Assembly (NCBI GenBank): GCA_937928595.1
Contig: CALGJV010000033.1
Coordinates: 1 to 64,000 of the forward strand
Reading direction: 5' to 3'
Length of the DNA: 64,000 nt
From: an uncultured Phycisphaerae bacterium
GTDB taxonomy: Bacteria > Planctomycetota > Phycisphaerae > UBA1845 > Fen-1342
Shown: piece by piece, positions 26,910 through 47,482 of the stretch
Layout of the letters: each line of letters starts with the position of its first letter
Position numbering within the stretch: the stretch's first letter is position 1
The notes under the pieces: model-generated
What the model was told of the DNA's origin: nothing
Databases searched by the model: none
Seen by the model: only the letters and a program-made list of their open reading frames with translations
Position numbers and translations under genes: made by a program

Positions 26910-26939
26910 TTGAACGACTGTATTACCCCGTAATACAAT
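26910..26939 (+). promoter_or_regulatory. Promoter of the RHH-znu operon
   Basis: TTGAAC (26910-26915), an 18-base spacer and TACAAT (26934-26939). The spacer and -10 box are occupied by the inverted repeat at 26919-26937, which would block RNA polymerase when bound. Confidence 0.6.
26919..26937. promoter_or_regulatory. Operator, perfect 8+8 inverted repeat before the RHH regulator
   Basis: Arms TGTATTAC and GTAATACA are exact reverse complements around CCC. The site lies between the -35 and -10 boxes of the operon promoter and 43 bases before the regulator's own start. The natural reader is the ribbon-helix-helix protein encoded next, in an autoregulatory loop. Confidence 0.7.
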
Positions 26940-26979
26940 CAGACGGTGCGCCCGGTCGCGGGCGCGGAAGGAGTCGAGC

Positions 26980-27282
26980 ATGCGCGACGCGCGACAGAAG
27001 GAGAGCGTCGTCACGTTCAAGGCGGATGCGTCGCTGCTGGACGCCCTCCGGAACCTCCCGAACCGGTCGGAGTTCATCCGGGCGGCGATTCTCCAGGCCC
27101 TCGACCATCACTGCCCGCTGTGCGGAGGCACGGGCGTGCTCTCGCCGAACCAGAAGCAGCACTGGCAGCGCTTCGCCGAGCGCCATCGGCTGCGCGAGTG
27201 CGACGAATGCCACGAGGTGCATCTGGTCTGCGGCAAGGAGGAGCACGGCCATCTCCACCGCGCCCCGCGCGCGGGTCGCTGA
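26980..27282 (+). CDS. Ribbon-helix-helix regulator with Cys/His metal-binding tail
   Basis: 100-residue protein. The N-terminal part has the RHH pattern: a strand VVTFKAD (10-16), helix LLDALRNL and helix NRSEFIRAAILQAL (28-41), as in CopG/NikR DNA-binding domains. The C-terminal half is rich in ligands: CPLC (45-48), CDEC (74-77), C84 and nine histidines, including an HGHLH end. It leads an operon with a zinc/manganese-type ABC transporter and is preceded by a palindrome over the promoter. It probably senses zinc or a similar metal and represses uptake. This is inference; the metal-sensing domain matches no named sensor that I recognise. Confidence 0.78.
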   Translation: MRDARQKESVVTFKADASLLDALRNLPNRSEFIRAAILQALDHHCPLCGGTGVLSPNQKQHWQRFAERHRLRECDECHEVHLVCGKEEHGHLHRAPRAGR

Positions 27283-27304
27283 GGACCACAACGGAGGCGA
27301 AACC

Positions 27305-28264
27305 ATGAGACGGTGGACCGGAGTAATGGGCGGGGTCGGGTTGCTGCTGCTGGCGGCGCCGCTCGGCGCGCAGACGACGGCGCCGGCCCGGCTGCGGGTC
27401 GCGGTGAGCATCCTGCCCCAGGCGTACTTCGTGGAACGGATCGGCGGCGACCGCGTGGACGTCCAGGTGCTGATCGGGCCGGGCCAGTCGCCCCACGCCT
27501 ACGAGCCGACGCCCCGGCAACTCGCCGCGCTCGGCAGCGTGAAGGTTTACTTCACCGTCGGCGTCGATTTCGAGACCGCGCTCGTGCCGCGCCTGCAGGC
27601 GATGTTCCGCGATTTGCGCCTCGTCGACACGCGCCGCGGCATCCCGCTCCGCTATTTCACGGCGGCGGAGGCCGCCGGGTGTCGCGACCACGACCACGAC
27701 CATCACCACGGGCCCGACTGCCGGCACGAGGCCGCGCCCGCCCCCGCTTCGCAGCCGGCGGGCGCGCGGCCGGACCCGCACTTCTGGCTGAACCCGCTCT
27801 ATGCCAAGACACTCGCCGCGACGATGTGCGCGACGTTGTGCGAGCTCGATCCGCCCGGCGCCGAGACGTACCGCCGCAACCTGGCCGCGCTGCAGGCCGA
27901 CCTCGACCGCGTGCACGAGCAGCTCACCGCGGCGCTGGCACCGCTGAAGGGCACCGAGATCTTCGTCTTTCACCCGGCGTTCGGCTACTTCACCGACGCC
28001 TACGGTCTGAAGCAGGTGCCGGTCGAGATCGAAGGGAAGGAGCCGACCGCCCGGCAGCTCGCCGCCCTGATCGAGCGGGCCAAGGCCGCCCGCGTGCGCG
28101 TCATCTTCGTCCAGCCGCAGTTCGCGCAGCGCGCCGCCGAGGCGCTCGCGCAGGCCATCGGTGGAGCGGTGGTGCCGATGGACGACCTGGCCCGCGACTA
28201 CGTGCGGAATCTCGAGGACATGGCGGCAAAGCTTCGCGCGGCCGCGCCGCCCGCGGCGCGGTGA
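27305..28264 (+). CDS. znuA: ZnuA-like metal ABC transporter solute-binding protein
   Basis: 319-residue cluster A-I substrate-binding protein for zinc or manganese. A signal peptide (MGGVGLLLLAAPLGAQ) precedes the domain. Metal ligand positions fit the family: His in SPHAYEPTP, His in PDPHFWLNP (about 158), His in FVFHPAFGYF (about 221) and Asp in the final VPMDD region. A His/Asp-rich loop, RDHDHDHHHG (about 127-136), is typical of zinc-specific members. GGAGG lies seven bases before the ATG. It follows the RHH gene by 22 bases and precedes the ATPase and permease of the same system. Confidence 0.92.
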   Translation: MRRWTGVMGGVGLLLLAAPLGAQTTAPARLRVAVSILPQAYFVERIGGDRVDVQVLIGPGQSPHAYEPTPRQLAALGSVKVYFTVGVDFETALVPRLQAMFRDLRLVDTRRGIPLRYFTAAEAAGCRDHDHDHHHGPDCRHEAAPAPASQPAGARPDPHFWLNPLYAKTLAATMCATLCELDPPGAETYRRNLAALQADLDRVHEQLTAALAPLKGTEIFVFHPAFGYFTDAYGLKQVPVEIEGKEPTARQLAALIERAKAARVRVIFVQPQFAQRAAEALAQAIGGAVVPMDDLARDYVRNLEDMAAKLRAAAPPAAR

Positions 28265-28277
28265 GCGGAGAACCGTT

Positions 28278-29036
28278 GTGGCCGACACCCCGGTGATCGA
28301 AGCCCGCGGTCTCTCGTTCAGCTACCCGCTGACGCCGGTGCTGACCGATGTGGACGTGACGATCCCGCGCGGCGACTTCGTCTGCATCGTCGGCCCCAAC
28401 GGCGGCGGCAAGACCACGCTGCTCCGCCTGGTGCTGGGCCTGCTGACGCCGACCGCGGGCACGATCCGCGTGTTCGGCCGACCGCCGGCCGAGGTCCGCC
28501 GCCGGATCGGCTACATGCCCCAGCATGTGCTGTTCGACCCGCAGTTCCCGGTCCGCGTGCGGGACGTGGTGCTCATGGGGCGGCTGCGCAACTGGAAGCT
28601 GGGGCCGTTCGGACGGGCCGACCGGGCCCGCGTGCTGGCGGCGCTGGCGGAGGTGGGCCTGGCGGATTACGCCGGGCGGCCGTTCGCGGCGCTGTCGGGC
28701 GGGCAGCGGCAGCGCGTGCTCATCGCGCGGGCCCTGGCCTGCGACCCCGAGCTGCTGCTGCTGGACGAGCCGACCGCCAACCTCGATCCGCTCGTCCAGG
28801 ACGAGATGACCGAGCTGCTCCGCGCGCTCAACGCGCGTCTGACGATCGTGATCGTCTCGCACGACGTCGGCTTCGTCGCGCGGCACGTGAAGAACGTCAT
28901 CTGCGTCAACCGCACGGCGGTGCGGCACGCGGCCCACGAGATCACGGGCGATTCGATCCGCGAGCTCTACGGCCACGACGTGCGGCTCGTGTCGCACGCG
29001 CACGGCCACGCGGAGGGAGGGGCGCACAGCCGTTGA
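28278..29036 (+). CDS. znuC: ZnuC-like metal ABC transporter ATPase
   Basis: 252-residue ABC ATPase with Walker A GPNGGGKTT, Q-loop YMPQHVLFD, signature LSGGQRQR, Walker B LLLLDEPT and switch histidine in VSHDVGF. The C-terminal tail contains HAHGHAEGGAHSR, a His-rich end of the type seen in zinc transport ATPases. GTG 28278 is supported by GGAG seven bases upstream. It sits between the binding protein and the permease of the same operon. Confidence 0.93.
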   Translation: MADTPVIEARGLSFSYPLTPVLTDVDVTIPRGDFVCIVGPNGGGKTTLLRLVLGLLTPTAGTIRVFGRPPAEVRRRIGYMPQHVLFDPQFPVRVRDVVLMGRLRNWKLGPFGRADRARVLAALAEVGLADYAGRPFAALSGGQRQRVLIARALACDPELLLLDEPTANLDPLVQDEMTELLRALNARLTIVIVSHDVGFVARHVKNVICVNRTAVRHAAHEITGDSIRELYGHDVRLVSHAHGHAEGGAHSR

Positions 29037-29070
29037 GGGACCGCCCGCGCGGCGGCCCGGGAGTCGGACG

Positions 29071-29949
29071 GTGATGGAGTTCATCGAGGCGGTGCGCCAG
29101 CAGCCGTTTCTCCAGACGGCGCTGCTGACCGGCGTGCTGTCGAGCGTCGCGTGCGGCGTGGTCGGCAGCTACGTCGTCGTGCGCCGCATCACGTACATCG
29201 CGGGCGGCATCGCGCACTGCGTGCTGGGCGGGCTCGGCGCGGCCCGCTACCTGGCCGTCGAGCACGGCTGGCGCTACTACCACCCGCTGCACGGCTGGGA
29301 GCCGCTGCATCCGCTGATCGGCGCCGTCGTGGCCGCCCTGCTGGCGGCCGTCATCATCGCCGTGGTCAGCCTCCGCGGCCGACAGCGCGAGGACACGGTC
29401 ATCGGGGCGCTGTGGGCCATCGGCATGGCCACGGGCGTGCTCTTCATCTCGAAGACCAGCGGGTACCAGGTCGACCTGATGAGCTACCTGTTCGGCAGCG
29501 TGCTGATGGTCGGCCGGGACGACCTGTGGCTCCTCGTGGGGCTGGACATCATCGTCGTCGGCGTCGGCCTGCTGTTCTACAACCAGCTCATGGCGGTGTG
29601 CTTCGACGAGGAGTTCGCCCGCCTGCGCGGCGTGCGCGTCGAGGTCTTCTACGTGCTGCTGCTGTGCCTGACGGCGCTGACGGTCGTCCTGCTGGTGAGC
29701 GTCGTCGGCATCGTGCTGGTCATCGCCCTGCTGACGCTCCCGGTGGCGGTCGCGGGGCACTTCTGCCGCTCGCTGTGGCAGCTCATGGTCGCGGCGGCGC
29801 TGCTCAGCATGCTGCTGACGACCGGCGGGCTGGCGCTGAGCTATGGCCCGGACCTGCCGGCCGGCGCCACGACGATCGTGCTGGCCGGCACGCTTTACGT
29901 GCTGACCGTGATCGGCACGCGCCTGCGGGCCCGCGTCCGGGCGGCGTGA
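29071..29949 (+). CDS. znuB: ZnuB-like metal ABC transporter permease
   Basis: 292-residue ABC-3 family permease with about eight membrane helices. Family landmarks are the N-terminal GVLSSVACGVVGSYVVVRRI, the AGGIAHCVLGG region and SYLFGSVLMV. An unusual periplasmic loop contains several His residues (YYHPLHGWEPLHPLIG, about 70-85). It completes the znuACB set. The start is GTG 29071 or ATG 29074; GGGAG lies seven bases before the first. Confidence 0.92.
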   Translation: MMEFIEAVRQQPFLQTALLTGVLSSVACGVVGSYVVVRRITYIAGGIAHCVLGGLGAARYLAVEHGWRYYHPLHGWEPLHPLIGAVVAALLAAVIIAVVSLRGRQREDTVIGALWAIGMATGVLFISKTSGYQVDLMSYLFGSVLMVGRDDLWLLVGLDIIVVGVGLLFYNQLMAVCFDEEFARLRGVRVEVFYVLLLCLTALTVVLLVSVVGIVLVIALLTLPVAVAGHFCRSLWQLMVAAALLSMLLTTGGLALSYGPDLPAGATTIVLAGTLYVLTVIGTRLRARVRAA

Positions 29950-42585: not shown

Positions 42586-44700
42586 ATGAAGCTGCGGCGC
42601 GCCACGGCCACGCTCGGAGTCGGTCTGGTCGGTCTGCTCGTTTCCGCGGGCGCCGCCCAGACCCCGGCGTCACAGCCGGCGCCCGCGGCGGAGCCGGTTC
42701 CGGCCTCGCAACCGACCACGGCGCCCGCGCCGGCCAAACCGCTCAAGTCGCTCCTCGACTTCAGCGAGCTGTGGCTCGATCTCGGCGCCGCGGCCGCCTA
42801 TGACGAGCGCTCCGTGACGTACCCGCGCCGCGGCGCGCGGCAGCCGCCCGACCGCCAGTTCAACCGCGCCACGCGGTTCGAGGAGACCGTCGGATTGCGG
42901 ACCCAGGGCGCCGTCGTCGATCCAAAGTACGCCACGTTCGACGTCAGCGCCTTGTGGGGCCTGACGCAGGAGCGCTACGCCGAGCACCGCCCCGGCCGCG
43001 ATCGGCACGATTCCCCCAACGGTGACGTGCTGCAGTACGACCTGTCCTTCAATCTGCTGCCGCGGGGCAAGGTCTCGGGCACGGTCTTCGCCTCCCAGAC
43101 CGACAGCCGCGTGCCGCGGGCCTTCCTGCCCAGCCTGGACAAGACCATCGAGCGGTACGGGGCCAGCGTCTTCGTCAACGACATCACGCTGCCGATGCGC
43201 TTCGACTTCGAGCATCGCTGGGACGCGCTGACCAGCCGCACGCGCGACCTCTCCGACGCCGAGCGGCTCGGCGAGGACCGCTTCCGCTACGAGGCCACCT
43301 GGCAGAGCAGCCCGGCCCACGCGCTGCGGCTCGAGTACGAATACACCGACCAGCGCCAGCAGTACTCCGGCGCCGACCGGCGCTTCGACACCACGCGGAA
43401 CTACCTCGTCCTGACGGACACGCTGCGCTTCGGCGCCGATCAGAAGAGCTCGCTCGAGACCGTCGCCCGCCTCCAGGACGAGAGCGGCGACATCGCCCGC
43501 GACCGGGCCGAGATCCTGTCGCGGCTGCGCCTCCAGCACACCGCCGCCCTCGCCTCCCACTTCGCGCTCCAGTACGACCAGCAGTCGTTCCAGAAGCTGG
43601 AGACCCGGACCTGGCGCGGCGAGGCCGGCCTGACGCACCAGCTCGGCCAGACCCTCACCACCACGCTCCAGATGTACGGCCTGACCCAGCAGGACGAGGA
43701 CAACGCCGACTTCCGGGAGTGGGGCGGCCTGCTCACCGCGGCCTTCGCCCGCGACAACGCCCTCGGCCGCCTGGCCGCGAACCTGTCCTACAACCACGCG
43801 TCGCTCGACACGCGCAACGGCGACCGGAACGGCATCGTCATCGGCGAGTCCGTCACCTTCCGCGACCCGCTGCCCGCGTACCTGGCCCACCCGAACGTCA
43901 ACGGACTCAGCCTCGTCGTGACCGATGCGAACCGGGCCCGCGTCTACCTCCCCGGCCGCGACTACCTCATCGTGCCGATCGGCCGCTACACGGCGCTGGT
44001 GCGCGTGCGGACCGGCCGCATCGCCGACCGGCAGACGGTGCTGGTGAGCTACACCTACCGGGTCCGCAACGACTACGACCTGGTGCGCGACCGCGTCGAC
44101 TTCCGCGTCCAGCAGGAGTTCAAGGGCGGCTTCACGCCCTACTACGCCGGCGCGCTCCAGTGCGAGGACGTCGACCGCGACCGGCTGTACCCGTATCCCG
44201 AGCGCCGCGTGAACCGCCACCGCGTCGGCTTCACCTTCCGCCAGCCGCGCTGGTCCGCGGGCGCCGAGTACGAGTACAACGACGACTCGATCGACCCCTA
44301 CCAGGCCGTGCACGGCAACGCCGACGCCGTCCTGTGGCAGCAGGCCGCGGCGCAGCTCGACGCGCGGGCCACGGCCTCGCGGTTCTGGTTCGAGGGGGCC
44401 CGCGGCCTGTCCGCGCACGACACGTTGCTGGTCGACGTCGGCGGCGCGTTCCGCTACTTCCTGGCCGATCGCCTCGAAGCCAACGTCGCCACGCTGTACC
44501 GCTACGAGGACGACTCCGCCAGCGGCATCACGCACGGCGTGGACCTGACCGGCACGCTGGCCTGGCAGATCGGCTACTTCTCGCTGCGCTTCGAGGCCGA
44601 GTACGACCTGCTTGACCTGTCCGACTCGCGCGCGAACGGCTTCTCATTCTGGGTCAAGCTGCGGCGCGAGATCCCCGTGCTCGCGCGGAGGGCGCCATGA
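42586..44700 (+). CDS. Predicted outer-membrane beta-barrel protein of the cytochrome cluster
   Basis: 704-residue protein with a signal peptide (ATLGVGLVGLLVSAGAAQ) and a Pro/Ala linker. The rest is almost wholly alternating polar/hydrophobic strands with Tyr, Arg and Asp turns (for example LRLEYEYTDQRQQY, SAGAEYEYNDDS, FSLRFEAEYDLLDL), ending in a strand with aromatic residues (FSFWVKLRRE). This is the pattern of large outer-membrane barrels. It lacks the N-terminal CXXC of MtrB, and I do not recognise a family. It heads the plus-strand arm, divergent from the tetraheme gene, and overlaps the next gene by four bases. A sheath for an electron conduit is the natural guess. Confidence 0.75.
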   Translation: MKLRRATATLGVGLVGLLVSAGAAQTPASQPAPAAEPVPASQPTTAPAPAKPLKSLLDFSELWLDLGAAAAYDERSVTYPRRGARQPPDRQFNRATRFEETVGLRTQGAVVDPKYATFDVSALWGLTQERYAEHRPGRDRHDSPNGDVLQYDLSFNLLPRGKVSGTVFASQTDSRVPRAFLPSLDKTIERYGASVFVNDITLPMRFDFEHRWDALTSRTRDLSDAERLGEDRFRYEATWQSSPAHALRLEYEYTDQRQQYSGADRRFDTTRNYLVLTDTLRFGADQKSSLETVARLQDESGDIARDRAEILSRLRLQHTAALASHFALQYDQQSFQKLETRTWRGEAGLTHQLGQTLTTTLQMYGLTQQDEDNADFREWGGLLTAAFARDNALGRLAANLSYNHASLDTRNGDRNGIVIGESVTFRDPLPAYLAHPNVNGLSLVVTDANRARVYLPGRDYLIVPIGRYTALVRVRTGRIADRQTVLVSYTYRVRNDYDLVRDRVDFRVQQEFKGGFTPYYAGALQCEDVDRDRLYPYPERRVNRHRVGFTFRQPRWSAGAEYEYNDDSIDPYQAVHGNADAVLWQQAAAQLDARATASRFWFEGARGLSAHDTLLVDVGGAFRYFLADRLEANVATLYRYEDDSASGITHGVDLTGTLAWQIGYFSLRFEAEYDLLDLSDSRANGFSFWVKLRREIPVLARRAP

Positions 44701-45755
44701 CCCCCGCGCGCCGCGCAGTCGGCGCCCTGGCGCTGCTCGGCCTGGCCGCCTGTCAGGCGCCGCCCGGACCGATCTTCCCCGACGTACAGCCGCCGCTCGT
44801 CTGGCCCCCGCCGCCCGACGTCCCCCGCGTCCGCTACGTCGGCGCGCTGCGCGGCGAGTCCAGCCTCGGCCGTCGCCCGACCGGCTGGGCCGCGTTCGAG
44901 GCGGTCCTCAGCGGCCCGCCGCCGACCGTCGAGTTCCTGCGGCCCGCCGCGGTCGCCGTCCGCGGCGCCCAGGTGTACGTCGCCGACGCCGGCATCGGCG
45001 CCGTGCACCGGCTCGACCTCGAGACGCGGGCCTATGCGCTGCTCCGCGGCAACCCGGCCGACCCGCTCCGCGTTCCGCTCGACGTCGCCGTCGTCCGCGA
45101 TGACACGCTCGTCGTGGTCGATCGCGGCCGCGCCGCGGTGGACCTGTTCGACCTCGCCGGCAACTGGCGCCAGACCCGCCGCTGGCCCGAGCTGGCGGCC
45201 CCGGTCGCGGCGGCGTGGGACGCGGCCCGCGGCGTGCTCTGGGTCGCGGACGTCGAGGCCCACGCCTGCCGCGCCACGAGCGACCTGGCGACGCTGCGCG
45301 ACACGCTCGGCCGCCGCGGCGCGGGCCCCGGCGAGTTCAACTTTCCGACGGCCGTCGCGGCCGCGGCCGACGGCACGCTCGCCGTCGTGGACGCCATGAA
45401 CTTCCGCGTGCAGCTCGTGGGGCCGGCGGGCAACGTCACGGCCCTGTTCGGGCGCAAGGGCGACGCCGCGGGCGACTTCTCCCGGCCGCGCGACGTGGCG
45501 TTCGATTCGGACGGGCACGTCTATGTGCTGGACAACCAGTTCGAGAACATCCAGATCTTTGACCCCACCGGGCGCCTGCTGATGGCGTTCGGCGAGGGCG
45601 GCGACGGGCCCGGGCAGTTCGCGCTGCCGAGCGGGCTGGCGATCGACGCGCAGGATCGCATCTGGGTGGCGGACAGTTACAATCGCCGCGTGCAGGTCTT
45701 CCAGTACCTGACGGACCGCGCGCCGGCCCCGGCCGGCGGGGCGGCGCCGCGGTGA
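44697..45755 (+). CDS. NHL-repeat lipoprotein
   Basis: 352-residue lipoprotein (lipobox LAAC, Cys19). It is followed by a Pro-rich linker and an NHL-type six-bladed beta-propeller (about 80-345), with repeats such as FNFPTAVAAAADGTLAVVD, FSRPRDVAFDSDGHVYVLD and FALPSGLAIDAQDRIWVAD (19 residues each). It has no haem motif. It begins inside the barrel gene with ATGA and precedes the dodecaheme-type cytochrome by 26 bases. It is the haem-free counterpart of the propeller in the NHL-octaheme fusion on the other strand. Confidence 0.85.
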   Translation: MTPARRAVGALALLGLAACQAPPGPIFPDVQPPLVWPPPPDVPRVRYVGALRGESSLGRRPTGWAAFEAVLSGPPPTVEFLRPAAVAVRGAQVYVADAGIGAVHRLDLETRAYALLRGNPADPLRVPLDVAVVRDDTLVVVDRGRAAVDLFDLAGNWRQTRRWPELAAPVAAAWDAARGVLWVADVEAHACRATSDLATLRDTLGRRGAGPGEFNFPTAVAAAADGTLAVVDAMNFRVQLVGPAGNVTALFGRKGDAAGDFSRPRDVAFDSDGHVYVLDNQFENIQIFDPTGRLLMAFGEGGDGPGQFALPSGLAIDAQDRIWVADSYNRRVQVFQYLTDRAPAPAGGAAPR

Positions 45756-45781
45756 GCCGCGCGGCGACACGGAGAGGCAGC

Positions 45782-47482
45782 ATGCGTCGGGTCGTAGTGA
45801 CGCTCATCGTGGGGGGGCTGGCGGCCGCGGCCGCGGCCGACGACAGCGTGGTCGGCTCCAAGCACGATCTGTCGGTCTGGGGTCCGGGACCCGTGCGGGC
45901 GGTGGAGGAGACAGAGGTCTGCATCTTCTGCCACGCGCCGCACAACGCCGCCCCGGCCTCGCCGCTGTGGAACCGCTACAACCCGACGACGTACTACCGC
46001 GTGTACCGCAGTCGGTCGCTCGACGCCCGCATCGACCAGCCGGGCCCGGCCAGCAAGATGTGCCTGAGCTGCCACGACGGGAGCATCGCGCTGGGGCTGG
46101 TGCTCAGCCGCCCGATCACCGACCCGATCGCGATGACGTCGCTGTACATGCCCAGCGGCCCGTCCAACCTCACGAATGACTTGTCCGACGATCATCCGAT
46201 CGGCTTCCGCTACGACCGCACGCTGGCCAACCGCGACCGCCAGCTCCGGGCGCCGGGCCTCGTCGATCATCGCATCCACCTCGGCGAGCGCGGCGAGCTG
46301 GAGTGCACGGCCTGCCACGACCCGCACAACAACGCGCTGGGCAACTTCCTGCGGATCACCGACCGCGAGGGCGCCCTGTGCCGCACGTGCCACAACCTGG
46401 ACGGCTGGGCCCTGAGCGCCCACGCCAACAGCGCCCGCACGGTCCTGCCGCCCGCGACCGGCGGCGAGCAGCTCCCCTACGCGACGCTGGCCGACAACGC
46501 CTGCGCCGCGTGCCACCTCTCGCACAGCGCCCCCTACCGCGAGAACCTGCTGTACGACCAGCCCTCGCGCTTGTGCCTCGGCTGCCACGACGGCCTCGGC
46601 GGGACCGACGTGCACGGCGTCATCAACCAGCGGTACGGCCACCGCATCAACACCTGGCAGGCCAACCGGCCCGCGCCGGAAGGGCGGCTGCGCATAACGC
46701 AGCGCGTCGAATGCACCGACTGCCACAACCCGCACGCGGCCCAGAAGACGCTCACGACGATCGGCGTGTCGCTCACGACGCGGGGGCCCCTCGTCCCGCC
46801 CGCCATGCAGCGCGTCCCCGGCGTCAGTCTCAGCGGGTTGCCCATCGCGAACGCCGGCTTCTACTACGAGGTCTGCTTCCGCTGCCACGCCGACCGGCCG
46901 GTCGTCGTCCGCGACCGGATCATCCGCCAGCGCGACGCGGCCGGCAACGTCCGGCGGCAGTTCCTCCCGACGGCCGCGTCCGCCCACCCCGTCACGACCC
47001 CGGCCCGCAACCTGGACGAGGTGCCGAGTTTGCGGCCGGAGTACCGCACGCGCAACTACATCAGTTGCCAGGACTGCCACAACAACCCCGACGCGATCGC
47101 CAACGGCGGCGCCCAGGTGAATGGCCCGCACGGCTCGCGCTACCCTTACCTGCTGGTGGCCCGCTACGACACGCGAGACTTCACGAACGAGTCGCCCCAG
47201 GCCTACGATCTGTGCTACCGCTGCCACGACCGGACGTCGATCCTCGGCGACCAGAGCTTCCCGTACCACAGCGAGCACGTCATCCGCGGCCGCTCGCCGT
47301 GTAGCGCCTGCCACACGGCCCACGGCGTCGCCGGCAGCTCCGTCGAGCACAGCCACCTGATCAACTTCGACCTGGCCATCGTCGGCGGCCGGCGGCAGTT
47401 CATCGACCAGGGCCGCTTCCGCGGCTCGTGTACGCTGACCTGTCATGGCGTGAATCACGTGAACTTCACGTACGCCCCGTAG
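45782..47482 (+). CDS. Large multiheme cytochrome c, 11 CXXCH plus one CX3CH
   Basis: 566-residue exported cytochrome. The signal peptide MRRVVVTLIVGGLAAAAA is followed by VVGSKHDLSVWG, the doubled-CXXCH opening. Eleven CXXCH sites are seen: CIFCH, CLSCH, CTACH, CRTCH, CAACH, CLGCH, CTDCH, CFRCH, CQDCH, CYRCH and CSACH. A further CTLTCH (from residue 550) near the C-terminus has three residues between the cysteines, a rarer haem site. Many distal histidines (HNPH, HSEH, HLINF) could be axial ligands. It ends the plus-strand arm of the cluster, 100 bases before tRNA-Ile2. Its likely role is a long electron wire in the periplasm or outside the cell. Confidence 0.88.
   Translation: MRRVVVTLIVGGLAAAAAADDSVVGSKHDLSVWGPGPVRAVEETEVCIFCHAPHNAAPASPLWNRYNPTTYYRVYRSRSLDARIDQPGPASKMCLSCHDGSIALGLVLSRPITDPIAMTSLYMPSGPSNLTNDLSDDHPIGFRYDRTLANRDRQLRAPGLVDHRIHLGERGELECTACHDPHNNALGNFLRITDREGALCRTCHNLDGWALSAHANSARTVLPPATGGEQLPYATLADNACAACHLSHSAPYRENLLYDQPSRLCLGCHDGLGGTDVHGVINQRYGHRINTWQANRPAPEGRLRITQRVECTDCHNPHAAQKTLTTIGVSLTTRGPLVPPAMQRVPGVSLSGLPIANAGFYYEVCFRCHADRPVVVRDRIIRQRDAAGNVRRQFLPTAASAHPVTTPARNLDEVPSLRPEYRTRNYISCQDCHNNPDAIANGGAQVNGPHGSRYPYLLVARYDTRDFTNESPQAYDLCYRCHDRTSILGDQSFPYHSEHVIRGRSPCSACHTAHGVAGSSVEHSHLINFDLAIVGGRRQFIDQGRFRGSCTLTCHGVNHVNFTYAP

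Follow-up and report, generated by a model that had tools for sequence, protein, structure and literature searches.

Our analysis indicates that the 100-aa ribbon-helix-helix (RHH) protein encoded in the 64,000-nucleotide stretch of Phycisphaerae DNA analysed here (the window) is likely to be a dedicated repressor that depends on Zn(II) and acts on the zinc-import operon headed by its own gene. This reading draws on features seen in the sequences: the conservation of the domain and its ligands, the linkage of the gene to the operon, an operator shared across phyla, the co-occurrence of gene and operator boxes, and boxes before znu operons to which the RHH gene is not linked. In the mechanism that we propose, two RHH dimers would bind side by side to two GTAWTAC boxes one helical turn (10 bp) apart and, sitting inside the promoter, would block RNA polymerase. 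The zinc-ribbon-like tail (C45, C48, H61, H69, C74, C77 and C84) would bind Zn(II). When zinc is sufficient, the holo-protein would occupy the DNA and repress transcription. When zinc is scarce, the apo-protein would dissociate, and znuACB and the RHH gene itself would be expressed. These boxes would have a second role in several genomes of planctomycetes and related bacteria, where they would control pseudopilin-like genes in an operon that also encodes ZepA-like or choice-of-anchor-M surface proteins. DNA binding by the RHH protein, the identity of the metal and the direction of the response are what we infer; the holo-protein is proposed as the repressing form because uptake must stop when the metal is plentiful.

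The RHH-znuACB operon

The RHH gene was found at the head of a znuACB operon, with all genes on the same strand (Table 1). mutL is divergent and starts about 70 bp from the inverted repeat in the promoter, and murJ is convergent beyond znuB. A PF01297 substrate-binding protein, an ATPase and an ABC-3 permease lie together in this operon, which is the composition of a Znu/Azt-type importer. Thus the znuACB-type transporter with a His-rich loop that a preliminary description of this DNA had placed in the same operon was borne out by Pfam searches, and the loop by inspection of the sequence. The homologs that we retrieved occupy 80 loci in about 15 phyla. At 67 of them znuA follows on the same strand within 450 bp, and at 2 more the contig ended; among the 28 closest homologs, nearly all adjoin znuA. 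At two loci (L074 4311-4964 and L124 4498-5460), the RHH gene stands under the same operator and is followed by a gene for a His-rich membrane protein, not by znuACB. These two membrane proteins share 37% identity, belong to no curated family and represent a candidate zinc transporter.

Table 1. Features of the RHH-znuACB operon and its promoter, in positions of the window
Feature	Position	Strand	Basis or remark
-35-like hexamer TTGAAC	26910-26915	+	sequence inspection
Perfect 8+8 inverted repeat TGTATTAC-CCC-GTAATACA	26919-26937	.	contains both boxes
Operator box 1, GTATTAC	26920-26926	+	exact; conserved upstream of homologs
Operator box 2, GTAATAC	26930-26936	+	conserved upstream of homologs; overlaps -10 region
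-10 candidates TAATAC or TACAAT	26931-26936 or 26934-26939	+	
Ribosome-binding site-like AAGGAG	26968-26973	+	sequence inspection
RHH regulator gene, 100 aa	26980-27282	+	RHH residues ~8-43, zinc-ribbon-like tail 45-84; profile, AF2, conserved Cys/His
znuA, metal ABC substrate-binding protein	27305-28264	+	PF01297 E=5.8e-68
His-rich loop of ZnuA, CRDHDHDHHHGPDCRH	27680-27730	+	sequence inspection
znuC, ABC transporter ATPase	28278-29036	+	ABC_tran 2.5e-33; best NCBIfam AztA (zinc ABC ATPase), 178 bits, cut-off 220
znuB, ABC-3 permease	29074-29949	+	PF00950 E=2.5e-67; best NCBIfam AztB, 170 bits, under cut-off

Operator boxes in the promoter

The preliminary description had drawn attention to a perfect 8+8 palindrome over the promoter. 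The repeat is indeed present near the -35-like hexamer, 42 bp before the RHH ORF, but palindromy alone is unremarkable, because the window has 77 such perfect repeats with spacers of 0-10. Palindromy was therefore rejected as evidence, and the evidence for an operator is conservation. What is conserved is a pair of pseudo-palindromic 7-mers in tandem, and the palindrome is one version of it. GTAWTAC-N3-GTAWTAC with at most 2 mismatches was found within 250 bp upstream of the gene at 70 of the 80 homologous loci (18 exact), compared with 0/80 shuffled upstream regions and 0/78 stretches 300 bp downstream of the gene; the other 10 loci have no boxes directly upstream. The preliminary description had held that absence of the palindrome before homologous operons would count against its proposal. 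The search was run and the operator was there, with znuA directly next at the 67 loci given above. In the window the boxes match exactly; with up to 3 mismatches allowed, 0.23 matches were expected per shuffled window.

The orientation of the boxes is free (FF 24, RF 24, FR 13, RR 7; the window has RF) and the flanking positions show little preference. The box centres are 10 bp apart, the 3-bp spacer having been set by the search pattern itself. The -35-like hexamer in the window is 15 bp from TAATAC or 18 bp from TACAAT, and at related loci 28 of the 70 sites have TTGAC 16-17 bp ahead of the box 2 TAWTAC. The position of box 2 inside the promoter suggests that the RHH protein is a repressor. 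As expected for a zinc-uptake regulator, the operator lies in the promoter of a zinc-import operon and is conserved together with the RHH gene.

The RHH domain and its Cys/His tail

RHH_1 (Pfam) matched the window protein at E=0.001, just under the cut-off, and a profile search with it matched 19 of 52 family members (best 2e-5). The closest NCBIfam model was aCcr1 (NF053762; 1.2e-6, 28.3 bits, below its cut-off of 60 bits), which matched 51 of the 52 members (best 5e-8), the match covering only about 30 residues. The AF2 model of the window protein, of moderate confidence (mean pLDDT 76), has helices at 17-24, 29-42 and 56-68 and strands at 69-73 and 80-84. Together, the two profiles and the first two AF2 helices agree with the strand-helix-helix domain of the RHH superfamily, and after these helices a helix and two strands surround the CxxC pairs. 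A fold search with the AF2 monomer returned no useful match, and a PDB profile search matched only the CPxCxGxG turn, which is also found in anti-TRAP and DnaJ.

The tail of the window protein consists of CPLC (45-48), CDEC (74-77) and C84, followed by a His-containing end. Among 81 sequences, C45, C48, C74, C84 and H69 were invariant and C77 and H61 were each present in 80; we regard these seven residues as candidate metal ligands. H78 and H81 occurred in 60 sequences each, and the terminal His residues, including the GHLH part, vary among homologs. The terminal His tail was rejected as the sensor since this stretch is unconserved. Of the combination described earlier, an RHH part with a CXXC, CXXC and His-rich tail, the RHH domain and both CxxC motifs were confirmed, and the cysteines of these motifs are invariant or nearly so among the homologs, but the terminal His-rich part is not conserved. 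Homologs had been retrieved by the peptide pattern NRSEFIRxA, so the conservation of that stretch partly reflects selection, while the other positions are unbiased. In the AF2 model, the two CxxC motifs with their helix and hairpin look like a structural zinc ribbon, and the tail could in principle hold a permanent structural zinc while the protein answers redox or another ligand. We consider this unlikely: seven conserved ligands exceed the need of one four-coordinate structural site, and the RHH gene is closely linked to metal uptake.

A second target and the identity of the metal

In the window's genome (G000), the next best site has 1 mismatch (contig C26:46121) and is the sole further site at up to 2 mismatches; a large regulon in this genome was therefore rejected. 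This site heads a gene group at C26 ~43500-46140 (L054 5501-8140) encoding a short HHH/CxLC protein, a DUF1559-type pseudopilin and two ZepA-like surface proteins. Of the six genomes of the window's family that have an extra site, five carry it (L054-L058) close to an operon in which DUF1559 pseudopilin genes are combined with genes of the ZepA-like or choice-of-anchor-M type. Besides G000, a DUF1559-type gene follows the extra site in G014, G008, G013 and G010 of this family. Outside the family (L173, L175 and L191), the site is followed by a DUF1559-type gene in G100 and G104 and by ZepA-like genes in G077. Several of the surface proteins matched NF040463 ('all3515 family Zur-repressed PEP-CTERM protein') weakly (5.5e-6, 0.0011, 0.023 and 0.044), below the curated cut-off yet over the same profile region. 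The surface protein of G008 is a choice-of-anchor M protein (choice_anch_M 1e-26) with TIGR03773/TIGR03769 matches. All3515 is ZepA; experiments in Anabaena showed that this protein mediates the uptake of zinc (PMC10957091). The sites that fall within metK in two spirochaetes appear to be chance matches, as do several isolated sites elsewhere with one mismatch. Arrangements related to the L054 operon were also seen at L055, L057 and L058. In Omnitrophota (L086 4236-4550), a DUF2946-like His/Cys-rich small protein is encoded directly 3' of the RHH gene and resembles in style the HHH/CxLC protein of L054.

ZnuA-type proteins import Mn too, and the RHH protein might regulate the operon but sense Mn, Fe, Ni or Co. 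The sequence of this ABC family is not metal-specific, the substrate-binding subunit scored 125 bits against MntC and 122 against AztC (NCBIfam), and NikR, to our knowledge the only RHH metal sensor so far, senses Ni. Another metal nevertheless seems improbable, because the ATPase and the permease score best against the Azt models (under the cut-offs) and the second target has relatives among families linked to zinc limitation; the Cys-rich ligand set and the His-rich ZnuA loop also speak against it. Taken together, the ZepA-like and choice-of-anchor-M genes of the second target, the Cys-rich tail and the His-rich loop of ZnuA lead us to favour zinc over Mn or Fe.

Co-occurrence of boxes and RHH gene, and the role of Zur

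Of 17 genomes in the window's family that have the RHH gene, 16 contain a site with at most 1 mismatch, whereas none of the 10 that lack the gene does (Fisher p=1.3e-6). Four of the RHH-less family genomes keep znuA, and the retrieved znuA neighbourhoods of RHH-less genomes had no site even at up to 2 mismatches. Furthermore, where the RHH gene is unlinked to znu, the boxes stand before znuA elsewhere, at 31 bp in G100 (L174), 13 bp in G101 (L176) and 60 bp in G098 (L179), and upstream of znuA in G097 (L181). In G096 (L177) they precede an operon that encodes a ZnuA protein together with two ABC-3 permeases. With the operator at 70/80 and znuA at 67/80 loci, and with RHH-less family genomes lacking the boxes, the earlier proposal of an RHH regulator of metal uptake different from Zur is largely supported.

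FUR-family genes were detected in 31 of 34 genomes tested, and the window's genome itself has an intact one with Zur-like features (L060 5967-6491), which adds a caveat to the preliminary remark that zinc uptake is usually controlled by Zur or similar. The idea that the RHH protein substitutes for an absent Zur was unsupported, as FUR-family genes coexist with it; Zur and the RHH regulator may share zinc control. A short, possibly broken FUR-family gene in the window's genome (L061 6368-6610, minus strand) adjoins a ZepA-like gene. If the boxes were sites of a FUR-family Zur, the RHH protein would be an accessory gene, for example a zinc chaperone or a co-regulator. Besides the presence of FUR-family genes in most of these genomes, and close beside the RHH-znuACB operon in L006, L065, L102 and L105, this could be argued from L206, where a FUR gene with Zur-like features adjoins a DUF1559/choice-of-anchor-M operon, and from published Zur sites with GTAAT/ATTAC halves, such as that of G. 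sulfurreducens (PMC545781). However, the boxes track the RHH gene and not FUR, since G004, G020 and G023 have FUR genes and lack both the RHH gene and the boxes. A Zur site is a single dyad, whereas the boxes are found in each of the four combinations of orientation, with a spacing of 10 bp. The RHH protein has a DNA-binding domain of its own, and most RHH loci showed no neighbouring FUR gene. We therefore give an accessory role little credit and retain the RHH protein as the probable owner of the boxes. At L206 (3157-4184), a short-tailed RHH gene with the first CxxC only adjoins the Zur-like FUR gene and the DUF1559/choice-of-anchor-M operon.

Comparison with known regulators

MetJ/Arc/CopG-type RHH repressors bind as side-by-side dimers to tandem short boxes and are not known to have a Cys/His tail. 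They resemble the present system in their tandem short operator boxes and differ from it in the tail. NikR likewise combines an RHH domain with a metal-binding C-terminal part, and its metal-bound form represses a metal-uptake operon. However, the C-terminal metal domain of NikR gave no match among the 52 RHH family members; the present protein has a short Cys/His zinc-ribbon-like tail and adjoins znuACB, not nickel genes. The NikR operator has inverted half-sites 13-14 bp apart (PMC545781), whereas here there are two 7-bp boxes with a 3-bp spacer. What we propose for the RHH protein is the role of Zur (FUR), with shared targets in znuABC and genes of ZepA-type zinc exoproteins (PMC6103462, PMC10957091); the fold of Zur is, however, unrelated and its operator is another one; the FUR domain PF01475 had no match in the window protein or the 52-member family. 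AdcR (MarR) is also a non-FUR regulator of zinc import (PMC6103462), but its fold differs, and MarR had no match in the same protein set. The best sequence relative of the DNA-binding part is aCcr1, an archaeal RHH cell-cycle repressor, which differs in regulating cdvA and cell division (PMC12796447); the window protein is under the NF053762 cut-off. By the tests made, the RHH protein would work like NikR or Zur but is a member of neither.

For import, a 2018 review of zinc-responsive regulators named Zur (FUR) and AdcR (MarR) (PMC6103462). We found no RHH/CopG zinc-uptake regulator, and no GTAATAC tied to zinc, in the open-access full-text literature. We think it probable that the RHH protein represents a separate class of zinc-uptake regulator, which joins an RHH domain, a zinc-ribbon-like sensor and its own two-box operator, occurs in about 15 mostly uncultured phyla, and, either together with Zur or instead of it, governs zinc import and also a pseudopilin/ZepA-like surface system in planctomycetes and their relatives. 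If so, RHH would be the third fold for zinc-import regulators, after FUR and MarR. Planctomycetota, Zixibacteria, Spirochaetes, syntrophic deltaproteobacteria, Lentisphaerae and others would gain a predicted zinc sensor with a searchable 17-bp operator, and unannotated surface proteins would be tied to zinc uptake.

Distribution of the family

Homologs were found in Planctomycetota, Spirochaetota, Thermodesulfobacteriota, Myxococcota, Bacillota, Zixibacteria, Lentisphaerota, Hydrogenedentota, Eisenbacteria, Gemmatimonadota, Omnitrophota and others. The RHH family is patchy: when the window's phylum was sampled evenly, a match at 1e-15 appeared in only 9 of 294 genomes. The homolog tree was poorly resolved and favours neither transfer nor descent. 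Almost all of the records retrieved are MAGs, and this may be why the family is undescribed. A second RHH clade, with PDKS in place of PNRS and a longer Cys/His tail, was seen at L197 (3694-4017), L198 (3163-3489), L203, L204 and L205. Its RHH gene adjoins znuA-C-B in L197 and L198, and in L198 a perfect GTCATAC-GTT-GTATGAC repeat lies between this gene and znuA.
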